Source of the DNA: Myxococcota bacterium
Lineage (GTDB): Bacteria; Myxococcota_A; UBA796; UBA9615; JAKLKC01
Direction of reading: 5' to 3'
Assembly (NCBI GenBank): GCA_023150875.1
Contig: JAKLKC010000048.1
Span: 1 to 53,064 of the forward strand
DNA: 53,064 bases
Shown: positions 2,396 to 16,058 of the stretch, in pieces
Position numbering within the stretch: position 1 is the first letter of the stretch
Layout: the number at the start of each line of letters is the position of its first letter
The notes under the pieces: generated by a model
Seen by the model: only the letters and a program-made list of their open reading frames with translations
The model's database searches: none
Told to the model about the DNA's origin: nothing
Made by a program: the position numbers and the translations under genes

Positions 2396-3571
2396 TCAGC
2401 CCGCGAAGCGGATCACCGCCTTGGGGTGTTCCCGGATCACCCGCTCGAACGCCTGGGGGTCGAAGCCCTCGATGGGCACGATGGTCCCCTGCCCCCGGTC
2501 CAGGATCACGTTCCAGATGGCGTCCTGCACGCCGTTGGAGGGGTCCTCCAGGAGCCGACGGGTGACCTCCCACGTCCCGAAGATCCGCCTCCCCACCACC
2601 GCGTGCAACGTCAGCCCGTCCAGGACGATCCGGTCGAAGTCCTCGACCACCAGGTCGCCGGACTTGATGCCGAAGAGCACCACGTGGCCGCCCCGGCGGG
2701 TGGACTTGACGGCGTTGTTCACCGAGCCCGGGAAGCCGCTCATCTCCATCGACACGTCGGCCCCGACCCCCGCCGTGAGCTCCCGCACCTGCCGCCGCAC
2801 GTCGGGGTCGTGGCGCCAGCTCTCGGGGCCGATCCGGGCGAGGTCGGGCCGGATCACCGCGTCGCATCCCAGCGCCCGGGCCATCTCGGCGTGGCGGGGA
2901 TCGGGCTCGACCCCGATCACCTGCCTCGCCCCCATGCCCCGGGCGATGAGGACCGCGAAGAGGCCGATGGTGCCGCAGCCGAAGACGGCGACGCTGCGGC
3001 CGGCGAGGTCCACCTGGGTGCAGGCGTGGACCGCGTTGCCGAAGGGCTCCTGGACGGCGCCCACCTCGGGGCGGATCCGGGACAGGTCCGTGGGCCACAG
3101 GGCCTTGGCGGGGAGCTTGATGTACTCGGCGAAGCAGCCATCCATGGAGATCCCGATGATCCGGTCCCGGGCGCAGACGTGGGTGTCGCCGGCGCGGCAG
3201 GGGTAGCACTCGCCGCAGACGATGTGGCTCTCGGTGGAGACGGCGTCCCCCGGCCGGATCCCCCGGGCGGCGGCGGCCCGGGAGCCGATGGCGACGACCT
3301 CCCCCAGCATCTCGTGGCCGACGATCCGCCGGTCCTTCCCCTCCTCCGCCAGGGAACCCAGGATCATGTCCCCGAACGCCTGCCGGGACCAGATCCCGCG
3401 GTCCGAGCCGCAGAATCCGGCGAACCTCACCCTCACCAGGGCCATGTCCCCGTCCCCGGGGTCTCGGGACTCGTCCAGCTCGGGGCGGGGCTCGTCGGTG
3501 AGGCGGAGCCCCCGGGAGCTCTCCCAGGGGTCCCGGACCCGGTCGTAGGTCAGAGCGCGCATCGTCTGCAT
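2396..3571 (-). CDS. tdh: Zinc-dependent threonine 3-dehydrogenase-type alcohol dehydrogenase
   Basis: A 391-residue medium-chain dehydrogenase. The catalytic zinc ligands C54 (FCGSD) and H86-E87 (GHEMLGEV) are present, as is the structural zinc set C119, C122, C125 and C133. A Rossmann motif FGCGTIGLF lies near residue 215. The expected reaction is L-threonine plus NAD+ to 2-amino-3-ketobutyrate, feeding Kbl encoded directly downstream. The protein is longer than E. coli Tdh (341) because of a 30-residue insertion near the N-terminus (around [15 protein letters not shown]), so it may be a divergent family member and the substrate is inferred mostly from the kbl neighbour. The start is ATG 3571; ATG 3562 is an alternative. 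Confidence 0.85.
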
Positions 3572-3701
3572 GGGGCCACCCGCGGGAGGAGGATCGCCGT
3601 TCCGGCAAGGGGGGCCGGGGGCACAAAGAGATACGTCATCGGGGGGCGATCCGCAACGCGGACGGGAGGCACCGGCCCGCTCCCGGCGGCGAGGACCTAT
3701 C

Positions 3702-5336
3702 ATGCCCCCTGGAGGTCCCGTGTACCGTCGACTCCTGGAGTGGCGCCGGGGTGGGAGGCCGGGCCCGCGCCGCCTCCACCTGGTGCTCACCGAGCGCTGC
3801 AACCTGCGGTGCCTGTCGTGCTTCATGGCCGAGACCCCCGCGTCCGCAGCGGCGGGGGAGCTGCCCGACGCGGTGGTCCTGGACCTGCTGGAGGACGCCG
3901 TGGGCCTGGGGATCCGCGAGGTCTACCTGGTGGGCGGGGAGCCCTTCGTGCGGCGGGACCTGGTGCTGGAGGCGGCGGCCAGGGTGAAGGGCCACGGCCT
4001 GCGGGGCGAGATGACCACCAACGGCACGCTGCTCCGCCCAGGGGACGCTCGACGCCTGGTGGAGATCGGGTGGGACTACCTCCAGGTCAGCGTGGACGGG
4101 CCCGACGCCGAGACCCACGACGCGCTCCGGGGCGCGCCGGGCAGCTTCCACCGGATCGTCCGGTCCTTCGGGCACCTGCGGGAGGCCCGGCGTGGGGCGG
4201 GGAGGCGCCTTCCCCGGCTGGCCCTGTCCACGGTCGTCTCGAACCGCAACTTCCGGCGGCTCCGGGACGTGGTGGAGCTCGCGGCGACGGTGGGAGCCGA
4301 CGAGGCGATCTTCCAGAGCCTCAAGCCCATGAGCCGCCACTGTCCCTCCCTGGCCCTGGACGACGGCCAGAGGGCGGAGCTGCGGGGCGCCGCCGCGGAG
4401 GCCGTGGAGGCCGCGGCGCGTCTGGGGGTCCGCACCAACGCCCGGGACCTGACCGAGGCGCGGGTGGCGGGCGGGTCGGAGCGGCTCCACGCCGTCATGG
4501 CCCAGGACGTCCACGAGACCGGGGATCCGCTGCTGGGGGCCCACTGCTACGTGCCCTGGTACAACGTGGTGGTCCACTGGGACGGCCGGGTCGATCCCTG
4601 CTGGGAGTGGGACGGAGAGCCCATGGGGGACGCCCGCAGCCAGCGCCTCTCGGAGATCTGGCACGGCCAGGGGTTCGAGGCGTACCGGGCGGCCTTCGTC
4701 GCCCGGGAGATCCCCTCCCACTGCGCCCGGTGCTGCCTCGGGCACCTGGACCACACCCGCTGGCTCCGCCTGAAGGCCCTGCGGGCCGCCGGCGAGTGGG
4801 AGGAGCTGCTGCGGGTCGCCGATGGCCTGTTGGCGCATCAGCCCGACCACCCCCAGGCCGTGGACGCCCGCCTGGACGCCCTCTACCACCTGGGGAGGGC
4901 CGAGGAGGCCCGGGCGACCCTGCGCCGCACCTTCGTCCCCGGCCGCGCCGCGTGGCCCGAGGACCTGCTGATGGCCCTCTTCGTCCCCCACCGGGAGGGG
5001 GACGCGGAGGCGGTGGTGGGGGCCGCAGACCGCGTCCTCGCCGGGTCCCCGGACGCCGCCTACGCCTGGTGGGTGCGGGGCGCGGCGCTTCAGGGCGCCG
5101 GCCGCCTGGACGAGGCCCGGGAGTCCCTGGAGAGGGCCGCCTCGGGGCGCTGCGACTCCTTCCGGGACGCCGTCCTGGACAGCCTCGCCCAGCTCGCCCT
5201 CGCCGAAGGTCGCCCCCGGGACGCCGCCCGCCTCGCCGAGGCCGCCCTGGCGCTGGCGCCGGGCAAGGACCAGACCCGGCGCCTGCGCTCCCGCGCCTTG
5301 CGGGCGCTCAGGGAGGGGCGGCGGGGCGGGCCCTGA
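3702..5336 (+). CDS. Radical SAM/SPASM protein with C-terminal TPR-like helical region
   Basis: A 544-residue protein. The radical SAM cluster motif C33-x3-C37-x2-C40 is followed by the GGEP loop (LVGGEPFVRRD) and VSVDGPDAETHD. A SPASM-type cysteine region covers roughly residues 280-345, with CYVPW, DPCWEW and HCARCC, suggesting auxiliary Fe-S clusters. From about residue 350 there are degenerate TPR-like helix pairs. SPASM enzymes usually modify peptides or activate partner enzymes, but no small precursor peptide or sulfatase gene is adjacent, so the substrate is unknown. ATG 3702 has GAGGA six bases upstream; GTG 3720 behind GGAGGT is an alternative. The gene is divergent from tdh across about 130 bases. 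Confidence 0.88.
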   Translation: MPPGGPVYRRLLEWRRGGRPGPRRLHLVLTERCNLRCLSCFMAETPASAAAGELPDAVVLDLLEDAVGLGIREVYLVGGEPFVRRDLVLEAAARVKGHGLRGEMTTNGTLLRPGDARRLVEIGWDYLQVSVDGPDAETHDALRGAPGSFHRIVRSFGHLREARRGAGRRLPRLALSTVVSNRNFRRLRDVVELAATVGADEAIFQSLKPMSRHCPSLALDDGQRAELRGAAAEAVEAAARLGVRTNARDLTEARVAGGSERLHAVMAQDVHETGDPLLGAHCYVPWYNVVVHWDGRVDPCWEWDGEPMGDARSQRLSEIWHGQGFEAYRAAFVAREIPSHCARCCLGHLDHTRWLRLKALRAAGEWEELLRVADGLLAHQPDHPQAVDARLDALYHLGRAEEARATLRRTFVPGRAAWPEDLLMALFVPHREGDAEAVVGAADRVLAGSPDAAYAWWVRGAALQGAGRLDEARESLERAASGRCDSFRDAVLDSLAQLALAEGRPRDAARLAEAALALAPGKDQTRRLRSRALRALREGRRGGP

Positions 5337-5381: not shown

Positions 5382-7364
5382 TCAGCGGGCGTCCTTGCAG
5401 CAGCGGAAGCCCGAGGCGGCGCTGGTGTAGCCGGGGCCGAACTTGTCGTGGCGCTGGTAGCAGCGGGCCTTCTCCTTGAAGTACCAGGCGCCCCCCATCA
5501 GGGCCGCCTCGTCCTCGGTGGAGCCGACCCACTCCTGGGCGTTCCCGGCGAGGTCGTAGACACCGTCCCGACTCACGCACCGGGGCATGGATCCGGTGAG
5601 CAGGGGGCGCGTGCGCTCCTGGTCCCCCTGGTCGGCGCAGGCCCCGGGCTCGTAGAAGTCGCCGTAGGGGAACTCGGTGCCCTCCAGGTAGTCGTCCCCG
5701 AAGATCCCGTTCTTGTCGTCGTCCACGGGGGCCGCCCCCTGGCAGGCCGCCACCCACTCCATCTCGGAGCAGGTCCGCTTGCCCGCCGCCTCGCAGGAGC
5801 GCTTCGCGTCGTACCAGCTCGAACGCAGGGCCGGCACCTGGTCCGCCTGGGACAAGGCCTTGCCCTGGGCGCTCGCCGGGGTGGCCGCCTCGAAGGAGTC
5901 GATGAAGAAGTGCAGGTCTCCGTAGCGGATCTCGCGCATCTCGGGGGCGGAGGCCGGTGAGCCCGCGGCGGCGTCGGCCGCCCCGTCGGCCTTGGCCTCC
6001 CTCGCCTTCCGCTGGGCGTCCGCCGCCGACGCCCCCAGCTCCTGCTCGATGGCGGCCATCAGCACCTGGGGCGACTGGATCCCCTTGAAGAGGCGGTCGC
6101 CGACGAAGATCCGGGGCGTACCGTCCAGCTTGCGGTCCGCCCCCTGCTGGGCGTTCATCCGGACGCGCTCCATGGCGGCGGGATCGGACAGGCACGAGTC
6201 GAAACGGCGGGTGTCGAGGCCGGCCAGCTCGGCGTAGTGGGCCAGGTCCGAGGAGGCGAGCTTGTGCTGGTTCTTGAAGGTGACGTCGTGCCACTTCCAG
6301 AAGCCGTCGTTGCCCCCCACGACGTAGGCGCAGCGACCGGCGACGGCGGCGTCGCAGGCGTCCCGGTGCCGGTTGTTCTTCACCCCCGGGTTGCACGCCG
6401 GGTTCATGGGATAGTCCTTCCACACGAACTGGACCCGGTCGGCGTACCGCTCCTCCAGGTCCTTGAGCACGTACGACATCCGCTTGCAGTAGCCGCACTC
6501 GAAGTCGGCGAACTCCACCACCCGCACCACCGCGTCCTTGGCGCCGCGGTAGGGGTCGTCGGCGAGGATGTCCGGGGCGCCGTCGGCGCTCCCCGGGACC
6601 AGGGTGGCGCTGGAAGCCGGAGTGGCGCCCGGGACCGCGCCCCCTCCCGCCACTGCCGCCACCCTCCCCTCCTCCAAGGTGGCGTGGACCCGCTGCTCGA
6701 CGGCGACCGCGACCAGGAGCAGCCCCGCCAGGGCGCCGGCCACCCGGAGCGGCACCATGGGGGAGCGGCGCAGGTCCCCGAGCACCTCGCCCACCAGGGC
6801 CCCGGGGGTTCGCCCGGAGAGCTGCCAGGACAGGACCAGGGAGGCGAGGTTCACCCCGTAGAGGGCCACGCACCAGATGCACTTCTCGCCGATGACGAAC
6901 ACGGTGATCGCCGCCAGGACCGCGCTGTAGGCGACCGTGGCGGCGCTGAGGGCGAAGGCATAGGCCGGCCCCCGGCGCGGCCACGGCCCCTTGCCCTTCA
7001 GGCCCCGCCATGCGAGGCCCATGAGCACGAGGTACGTGGGGATGGCGGGGAGGGCGGTGGGGATCCCGAAGATCGCGCCGTAGTCGCTCGCCTGCACCTC
7101 GGCACAGTTCCACCCGGGGTCGTCTCCGCACCCGGCGACGAAGCCTTCGATCAGCCCGTGGACGCTGTAGTGGAAGCGGACGAGGTGGATGGCGACGGCG
7201 ATGCCGGCGGCCAGCACTGCGAAGAGGGCATGGGCGGCCCACGCCCGGGGCGCCTCGCCCCCCGGCGCTCCGCCCCCGGACGCGGCGGGCGGGGTGGCGG
7301 CCGCCCCAGGTCCGCGGTGGACGGGGCGGACCGGCGGTGAGCCGGACTTCTTCTTGCTGGCCAT
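5382..7364 (-). CDS. VKOR - DsbA-like thioredoxin - FGE-like fusion protein
   Basis: A 660-residue membrane protein with three modules. Residues 41-185 form a VKOR-type multi-helix domain with loop cysteines C79 and C87 and the CIWC pair at 162-165. After one more helix (about 205-222), residues 275-445 are a DsbA/DsbG-like thioredoxin with CGYC at 290-293 and the cis-Pro context GTPRIF. Residues 476-660 resemble the FGE/SUMF1 fold (GKRTCSEMEWVAAC, YDLAGNAQEWVG, GFRC). VKOR plus DsbA makes a self-recycling disulfide-forming enzyme facing the periplasm. In the FGE-like part the first catalytic cysteine position is F629 (GGAWYF), while C635 is kept, so formylglycine synthesis is doubtful. It follows the TlpA-like gene on the same strand, 46 bases away. 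Confidence 0.9.
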   Translation of the reverse strand: MASKKKSGSPPVRPVHRGPGAAATPPAASGGGAPGGEAPRAWAAHALFAVLAAGIAVAIHLVRFHYSVHGLIEGFVAGCGDDPGWNCAEVQASDYGAIFGIPTALPAIPTYLVLMGLAWRGLKGKGPWPRRGPAYAFALSAATVAYSAVLAAITVFVIGEKCIWCVALYGVNLASLVLSWQLSGRTPGALVGEVLGDLRRSPMVPLRVAGALAGLLLVAVAVEQRVHATLEEGRVAAVAGGGAVPGATPASSATLVPGSADGAPDILADDPYRGAKDAVVRVVEFADFECGYCKRMSYVLKDLEERYADRVQFVWKDYPMNPACNPGVKNNRHRDACDAAVAGRCAYVVGGNDGFWKWHDVTFKNQHKLASSDLAHYAELAGLDTRRFDSCLSDPAAMERVRMNAQQGADRKLDGTPRIFVGDRLFKGIQSPQVLMAAIEQELGASAADAQRKAREAKADGAADAAAGSPASAPEMREIRYGDLHFFIDSFEAATPASAQGKALSQADQVPALRSSWYDAKRSCEAAGKRTCSEMEWVAACQGAAPVDDDKNGIFGDDYLEGTEFPYGDFYEPGACADQGDQERTRPLLTGSMPRCVSRDGVYDLAGNAQEWVGSTEDEAALMGGAWYFKEKARCYQRHDKFGPGYTSAASGFRCCKDAR

Positions 7365-14714: not shown

Positions 14715-15974
14715 TCAGGCGCGGCGGCGACCGCGCCGGAGGAGCCCGGCCAGGGCAGCGAGGGCGGTCGCCCCCAGCGCGGATGCGGCGCTCCCGCCCC
14801 GGGCCTGGGCGCAGGTGACCGCGCCGTCGGAGTCCAGGAAGTGGCCCTGGGCGTAAGCGTGGCCGGTGACCGTCACCGGCTCGCCGTCCTGGACGCCGTC
14901 GTTGACCGTGAGGGTCGCCCGGAAGTCCCAGGAGTCGTTCGGCGCGTCGCCGTCGAACACGATCTGGGAGGGATCGATCTCCAGCACCAGGACGGCCTGG
15001 GGGGAGTCGGCGCGGGCGTGGAACGACACGACCGTGACGCCGGGGTACTGGGGGGCGGGATCCTCGAGGGCCCAGGACCACGAGAGGGCGTCCCCCACCT
15101 CGGCGTCCACGCTCGCCCTCCCGTCGAAGACCAGGGAGAGGCGACCGCCGAAGTACTGCGCCTGGGGTCCGGTCCCGGCGTCCGCCGTGGGGGGCGCGTC
15201 GGCGCAGTCCGGATCGGCGCCGTCGGTCAGCGCATTGCAGTCGTTGTCCACCCCGTCGTCGCAGACCTCGGCGGCGTTGGGAGAGACGGCGGGATCCGCG
15301 TCGTCGCAGTCCTCGCACCCGATGCTCCCGTCGGCGTCCCCATCGGCCTCGTCCGCGGGCACCACCTCATCGCAGTCGTCGTCGACCCCGTTGCACGCCT
15401 CGACCGCCCCCGGGAACACCGCGGCGCTGGCGTCGTCGCAGTCGCCACCGCAGCCCGTGAAGCCGTCCCCGTCGGCGTCCAGCTCGTCCTCGGGGACCGC
15501 GCCGTCGCAGTCGCCGTCCAGGCCGTCGCACGCCTCGGCGGCGCCGGGATGCACCGCGTCGCTGGCGTCGTCGCAATCGCCGCCGCACGTGCTGACCCCG
15601 TCGCCGTCGGCGTCGGCGAGGTTGAGGGCGGGATCGGAGTCGTCGCAGTCGTAGGCGCAGGTGCTGGCGCCGTCCCCATCGGCGTCCAGGCCGTTCAGCC
15701 ACGCCTCGGCGTCGTCGCAGTCACCCTCGCAGGTGGACTGGCCGTCGGCGTCCGCGTCCGACTCCACCGGCGGGACGCTCCCGTCGCAGTCGGTATCGAC
15801 CCCGTCGCACAGCTCCTCCGCGCCCGGATAGACGTCCGGGTTGGCGTCGTCGCAGTCGTCGACCTCGTCGAAGCCGTCGCCGTCGCCGTCGGCGGCGAAC
15901 GCCGTACTCCAGGGCCCGAGGGCCGCCGTGCCGAACAGCGCCAGCGCAACCGCCAGCCGCCGCATGGATGCCAT
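14715..15974 (-). CDS. Exported MopE-repeat protein with MYXO-CTERM-like tail
   Basis: A 419-residue protein: a signal peptide (MASMRRLAVALALFG...AFA), then four complete and two shortened MopE-type repeats (DCDD...PGA.E.CDG.D.DCDG) over about residues 30-230. An Ig/PKD-like beta region (PPTADAGTGP...WSWALEDP) follows. The tail CAQARGG-hydrophobic helix-RRGRRRA resembles the MYXO-CTERM sorting signal, so the protein is likely anchored at the cell surface after processing. MopE repeats are Asp/Cys-rich and proposed to bind metal (copper or calcium). ATG 15974 has GGAG eight bases upstream. A good promoter lies at 16030-16058. Confidence 0.9.
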   Translation of the reverse strand: MASMRRLAVALALFGTAALGPWSTAFAADGDGDGFDEVDDCDDANPDVYPGAEELCDGVDTDCDGSVPPVESDADADGQSTCEGDCDDAEAWLNGLDADGDGASTCAYDCDDSDPALNLADADGDGVSTCGGDCDDASDAVHPGAAEACDGLDGDCDGAVPEDELDADGDGFTGCGGDCDDASAAVFPGAVEACNGVDDDCDEVVPADEADGDADGSIGCEDCDDADPAVSPNAAEVCDDGVDNDCNALTDGADPDCADAPPTADAGTGPQAQYFGGRLSLVFDGRASVDAEVGDALSWSWALEDPAPQYPGVTVVSFHARADSPQAVLVLEIDPSQIVFDGDAPNDSWDFRATLTVNDGVQDGEPVTVTGHAYAQGHFLDSDGAVTCAQARGGSAASALGATALAALAGLLRRGRRRA

Positions 15975-16029
15975 CTTGTTCGCTCCGTCCCGTGGGCGCA
16001 CCCAGGCGCGCCCCTGGGAGCTTTGGCCG

Positions 16030-16058
16030 GTTGTAGAGGATCGGCCGCACTCCGTCAA
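16030..16058 (-). promoter_or_regulatory. Sigma70-like promoter for the MopE-repeat gene
   Basis: On the minus strand TTGACG (16058-16053) is followed after exactly 17 bases by TACAAC (16035-16030). Transcription would begin near 16023, giving a leader of about 50 bases before ATG 15974. It lies in the 270-base divergent gap with the cyclophilin gene. Confidence 0.55.

Follow-up and report, generated by a model that had tools for sequence, protein, structure and literature searches.

The window analysed here, a stretch of 53,064 nucleotides from a Myxococcota bacterium, contains a gene in which VKOR, DsbA and FGE-like domains are held in one intact, uninterrupted frame (Table 1). All three domains of the encoded protein exceed the curated Pfam cut-offs, with E-values of 1.5e-19 for VKOR (residues 47-180), 1.2e-18 for DSBA (residues 282-439, the related Thioredoxin_4 model spanning 270-440) and 3.2e-13 for FGE-sulfatase (residues 501-656). 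The initial annotation had placed this combination in a single membrane protein, and both the combination and the gene boundaries were borne out exactly; the minus-strand orientation had been left unstated. A tlpA gene lies directly upstream on the same strand, separated from the fusion gene by 46 bp. We observed the same domain order in homologues from 48 of 284 genomes of the phylum (E<=1e-60) and a second copy in the window's genome, which together rule out chance or an assembly artefact. These two fusions and one VKOR-DsbA protein without an FGE domain account for all the VKORs of this genome.

Table 1. Positions of the genes, domains and sites discussed, in window coordinates.
Feature	Residues	Position	Strand	Remarks
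VKOR-DsbA-FGE fusion gene	660 aa	5382..7364	minus	ATG start
VKOR domain	47-180	6825..7226	minus	active cysteines C79, C87, C162, C165
Fifth hydrophobic helix	201-226	6687..6764	minus	from hydropathy; AF2 helix 203-238
DsbA domain	270-440	6045..6557	minus	active site C290-GY-C293
FGE-like domain	471-660	5385..5954	minus	eight invariant Cys, without catalytic Cys pair
Acidic insert DDDKNGIFGDDYLEG	548-562	5679..5723	minus	specific to the fusion family; EF-hand-loop-like
C635 codon	635	5460..5462	minus	best match human FGE Cys346
TlpA/ResA-like secreted thioredoxin	187 aa	7411..7974	minus	WCGPC; signal-peptide-like N-terminus
Radical SAM/SPASM protein		3570-5336	plus	C-terminal TPR region; convergent to fusion gene
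Secreted Cys-rich repeat protein		14715-16058	minus	DxDGDG...DCDD...CDG repeats

Hydropathy and the AF2 model both place five hydrophobic helices N-terminal to the DsbA domain, a pattern that fits the layout of bacterial VKOR proteins, with the other domains predicted to lie outside the cytoplasm. The fifth helix presumably brings the chain across to the periplasmic side. The AF2 model was built on the window protein together with loci found in the genome scan. It has a pTM of 0.43, with low confidence in the VKOR part and in the arrangement of the domains, and in a four-domain model of a fused homologue (L039) the pLDDT is often under 50 around TlpA.

The four VKOR cysteines are conserved in the homologues that cover those sites, and in an alignment of 29-31 homologues the redox cysteines of both domains are invariant or nearly so. 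The protein has the features of a VKOR-thioredoxin fusion, namely two loop cysteines and a CxxC motif in VKOR and, in the same chain, a partner of thioredoxin fold with its own CxxC. Structure comparison matched the DsbA part to Corynebacterium diphtheriae TsdA/DsbA, ScsC and BdbD. Four more cysteines of the DsbA domain (324, 337, 345 and 391) are invariant, probably forming two extra disulfides, and are shared with VKOR-DsbA proteins that have no FGE domain (L003, L120, L121). The proposal of a disulfide-catalysis machine is supported by the retention of the VKOR cysteines and the DsbA CxxC throughout the homologues, and this conserved chemistry gives good support to a predicted disulfide-forming core.

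The upstream TlpA has the WCxPC motif and belongs to the AhpC-TSA/Redoxin family, scoring under the curated NCBIfam cut-offs for ResA (114.9 against 170 bits), TlpA (83.9 against 230) and DsbE. It is the counterpart of a TlpA domain that is fused to the C-terminus in most homologues. The homologues were collected with a query that did not contain TlpA, yet every informative locus (40/40), that is, each whose contig reaches far enough, carries a TlpA-like domain with CxxC: 31 as C-terminal fusions and nine, the window included, as separate upstream genes (a further locus, L195, seems split only through the end of its contig). The nine split loci form one clade with support of 100/98 in a tree of the DsbA-FGE part. 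The occurrence of the same parts in two arrangements argues strongly for a functional unit of VKOR, DsbA, FGE and TlpA. The TlpA-like neighbour reported in the initial annotation is therefore real, its partnership with the fusion much stronger than was stated there, and genome context gives good support to its role as a partner. A fused TlpA might be oxidised by its own oxidase, in which case it would not act as a reductase.

Other arrangements were also seen. In the phylum of a Bdellovibrio-named MAG, two loci (L200:208-2652 and L201:49-1878) have a (DsbA-)FGE gene and, directly after it, a gene whose secreted product contains a tandem pair of DsbA-like domains; these contigs end ahead of any VKOR. 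Another locus (L140:5600-8450, G221) encodes a five-domain VKOR-DsbA-DsbA-FGE-TlpA protein with a tandem DsbA pair. A contig scan with a single sequence returned no match, and an alignment-based scan returned mainly FGE-only matches together with two fusion loci. No homologue was found at E<=1e-40 in genomes named Sorangium, Minicystis or Polyangium, and none at 1e-50 in the phylum samples for Thiolinea (398 genomes) and Nitrospira (148), although such empty answers count only as weak evidence. The phylum of the Bdellovibrio-named MAG has relatives in 2 of 193 genomes, one a DsbA-FGE (46% identity) and one an FGE part (49%), both on contigs cut short ahead of any VKOR. A search in the phylum of a Polyangium genome retrieved the same contigs as the search in the window's own phylum, which places the window in the phylum of Polyangium, the Myxococcota. 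The architecture might have proved to be both widespread and already characterised; it is widespread in Myxococcota, and we found no published description of it. Searches that paired VKOR with FGE, TlpA or Myxococcota, in a literature holding only a minority of subscription papers, did not return the architecture. VKOR-thioredoxin fusions, non-catalytic FGE folds and TlpA are each known; their combination is undescribed in the searchable literature and common in the phylum.

The third domain had been assigned an FGE-like fold, and structure prediction upholds this. AF2 pLDDT over residues 470-660 gave block means mostly of 75-97, falling to about 48-64 over the acidic insert, and VIA-align matched about 165 residues at 2.4-2.6 Å, with Z values of 20.0 for CalU17, 18.2 for Streptomyces coelicolor FGE and 17.4 for human FGE and SUMF2. 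With this model confidence and Z values of 17-20 the fold assignment stands. The Pfam match covers positions 82-254 of the 255 in the profile and falls short of a full-length domain, its late start pointing to an N-terminal third that is either absent or diverged. The acidic insert takes the form VDDDxNGxFADDxxEG. A lax version of this motif matches 41/41 FGE domains of the fusions but none of 86 others (0/86); the strict form, D-x-[DN]-x-[DN]-G, matches 26/41 and 0/86. The stretch that holds the insert has a median length of 26 residues in the fusions against 10 elsewhere. From its resemblance to an EF-hand-type loop the insert may be a putative Ca2+ site.

In a quick tree the FGE domains of the fusions fall on one side of a branch (SH-aLRT 99) against 64 other FGE domains, and as one clade they require only a single acquisition. 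The FGE domain also has the highest mean pairwise identity of the four modules, 52% compared with 45% for DsbA, 41% for TlpA and 33% for VKOR. The family is expanded in the window's genome, with about 37 FGE-like matches (for example L007 and L147-L176), and in at least one case (L007) the match lies at the C-terminus of a protein kinase. Elsewhere, FGE/C-type-lectin folds are used for binding (PMC8195603). This use of the fold and the number of matches in the genome would suit a domain that binds glycan, peptidoglycan or a signal peptide and does no more than anchor or target the oxidase, as a localisation module or as the substrate-presenting lid of the initial annotation, which would be compatible with the data. 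We consider such a role unlikely. The domain is better conserved than the catalytic ones and, in the fused form, always sits between DsbA and TlpA, features that suggest an internal function.

Human FGE uses Cys336 and Cys341 in catalysis, and both are named in PDB mutant entries (C336S, C341S). The initial annotation took C635 to be one of these two catalytic cysteines, which is most likely wrong. Across the aligned homologues C635 is the single cysteine between GG (624-625) and GFRC (652-655), so the Cu(I)-binding pair is absent however the sequences are aligned; the domain has the FGE fold and no equivalent of the Cys336/Cys341 pair. HMMER placed C635 at Cys341 in one human entry, at Cys346 in another and at the RC-A-R position in CalU17, so sequence alignment alone leaves both human cysteines as matches. 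The spacing from C635 to GFRC is 20 residues and that from C524 to C541 is 17. In human FGE the corresponding spacings are 19 from Cys346 and 24 from Cys341 to GFRC, and 17 between Cys218 and Cys235, and structural disulfides link Cys218 to Cys365 and Cys235 to Cys346. On spacing we favour C524-C655 as a likely equivalent of Cys218-Cys365 and C541-C635 as that of Cys235-Cys346, C541 being the probable partner of C635.

Covariation points the same way. Among 86 other FGE domains C541 and C635 are both present in 25, one only is present in four and neither in 56, and for C524 and C655 the counts are 56 with both and 16 with one only. The eight-cysteine set is nearly all-or-none in these domains and the six less common cysteines behave almost as one set, which marks a Cys-rich FGE subfamily and leaves the individual disulfide pairs not independently resolved. 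From spacing and covariation C635 is most likely structural, not catalytic. We rejected C635 as a catalytic remnant, the pair being absent in the homologues and the best match being the structural Cys346. The clear homology to the FGE, EgtB and OvsA folds would allow an active oxidase, with formylglycine-type or other copper or iron chemistry, coupled to the disulfide machine. This is very improbable given the loss of the Cu(I)-binding pair in the aligned family, a Pfam match that begins at position 82/255, with the N-terminal third missing or diverged, and a best PDB sequence match to the non-catalytic SUMF2 (E=7.9e-11, family profile).

The neighbouring radical SAM/SPASM protein scores under the NCBIfam cut-offs of all 25 of its best matches and so belongs to an unnamed subfamily. 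It had been suggested as a functional partner of the fusion, and this was not supported. Neither the radical SAM gene nor glmS is adjacent in any of 40 other homologous loci (0/40), and both were rejected as members of the system; a partnership of the anaerobic sulfatase maturase kind has no conserved neighbourhood here. The secreted Cys-rich repeat protein encoded elsewhere in the window is a plausible kind of disulfide client, and a related gene adjoins the homologue in L124.

In four genomes of the same order (L132, L133, L135, L183) the gene for the fused form and ccmB-C-E-F are divergently oriented, and a stand-alone extra TlpA is encoded downstream of the fusion; on contigs that reach far enough, a ccmG-like TlpA and ccmH accompany the ccm genes. 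The adjacency makes cytochrome c maturation a plausible client in that lineage. It also favours reading the whole as a specialised thiol system for the maturation of cytochrome c, or of a similar metalloprotein, in which DsbA would oxidise the apocytochrome CXXCH, a CcmG/ResA-like TlpA would re-reduce it and the FGE domain would hold the client. We regard this as rather unlikely, because the ccm link is confined to one family of genomes; there are no ccm genes near the window gene, its split-clade relatives or the paralogue in its own genome, where ccmF is on another contig.

With moderate confidence we propose that the fusion is a disulfide-forming oxidase coupled to quinone and partnered by TlpA, in which the FGE-like domain is a non-catalytic docking scaffold. 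The domain content, the conserved redox cysteines, the absence of the FGE catalytic pair, the constancy of TlpA and the single clade of fusion FGE domains are direct observations. In the cell envelope the membrane VKOR domain would oxidise the DsbA domain of its own chain, which would in turn form disulfides in exported proteins. Electrons would pass from C290/C293 to the loop cysteines C79/C87, on to C162/C165 and then to quinone. The TlpA/ResA-type thioredoxin would be a constant second redox arm, a separate secreted protein here and a C-terminal fusion in most homologues. Between the two thioredoxin-fold arms the FGE-like domain may form a disulfide-caged scaffold of the C-type-lectin type, not an enzyme, which with its possibly Ca2+-binding insert would dock substrate or TlpA beside DsbA, a role we infer from fold, position and conservation only. 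A bolder version, to which we give little weight, is a single membrane polyprotein with a VKOR-DsbA oxidising arm and a TlpA reducing or isomerising arm, the dead FGE fold serving as substrate dock and insulator. If this were true, one machine would both oxidise and correct disulfides, for example in apocytochromes or Cys-rich surface proteins.

Outside the cytoplasm, thiol pathways that oxidise are normally separated from those that reduce. With VKOR-DsbA and TlpA bound together through a conserved FGE fold in much of a phylum, the question of whether a single machine can accommodate both becomes testable. The fusion also adds to the non-catalytic uses of the FGE fold, and is a warning that automatic labels would miscall the protein a sulfatase-modifying enzyme.

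Among known systems, bacterial VKOR-thioredoxin fusions such as Synechococcus VKOR and the plant fusion LTO1 (PMC4307334) share with the fusion a VKOR, predicted here to be quinone-linked, that is joined within a single chain to a thioredoxin-fold partner outside the cytoplasm, likewise with four VKOR cysteines and a CxxC. In contrast, the partner here is of the DsbA type, with an FGE-like domain after it and a TlpA that is fused or adjacent. The window's own genome has the same VKOR-DsbA pair, with the same extra DsbA cysteines and a lipoprotein-like tlpA directly upstream, in a protein without the FGE domain (L003:862-2574), which is possibly an ancestral or stripped form. Human SUMF2 (pFGE, 1y4j), a non-catalytic FGE paralogue, likewise has the FGE fold without the catalytic cysteine pair, but is unfused to redox domains and has neither the acidic insert nor the eight-cysteine set. 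The window TlpA shares the WCxPC motif, the AhpC-TSA/Redoxin family and secretion with the TlpA/ResA/CcmG thioredoxins, but is tied to a VKOR oxidase and not to a reductase of the DsbD/CcdA type. DsbI of Epsilonproteobacteria is also a membrane disulfide-generating oxidase with a C-terminal periplasmic non-thioredoxin domain, in that case a beta-propeller (PMC5403849). Unlike the fusion described here, it is of the DsbB and not the VKOR type, its extra domain is a different one, and its chain contains no DsbA or TlpA.
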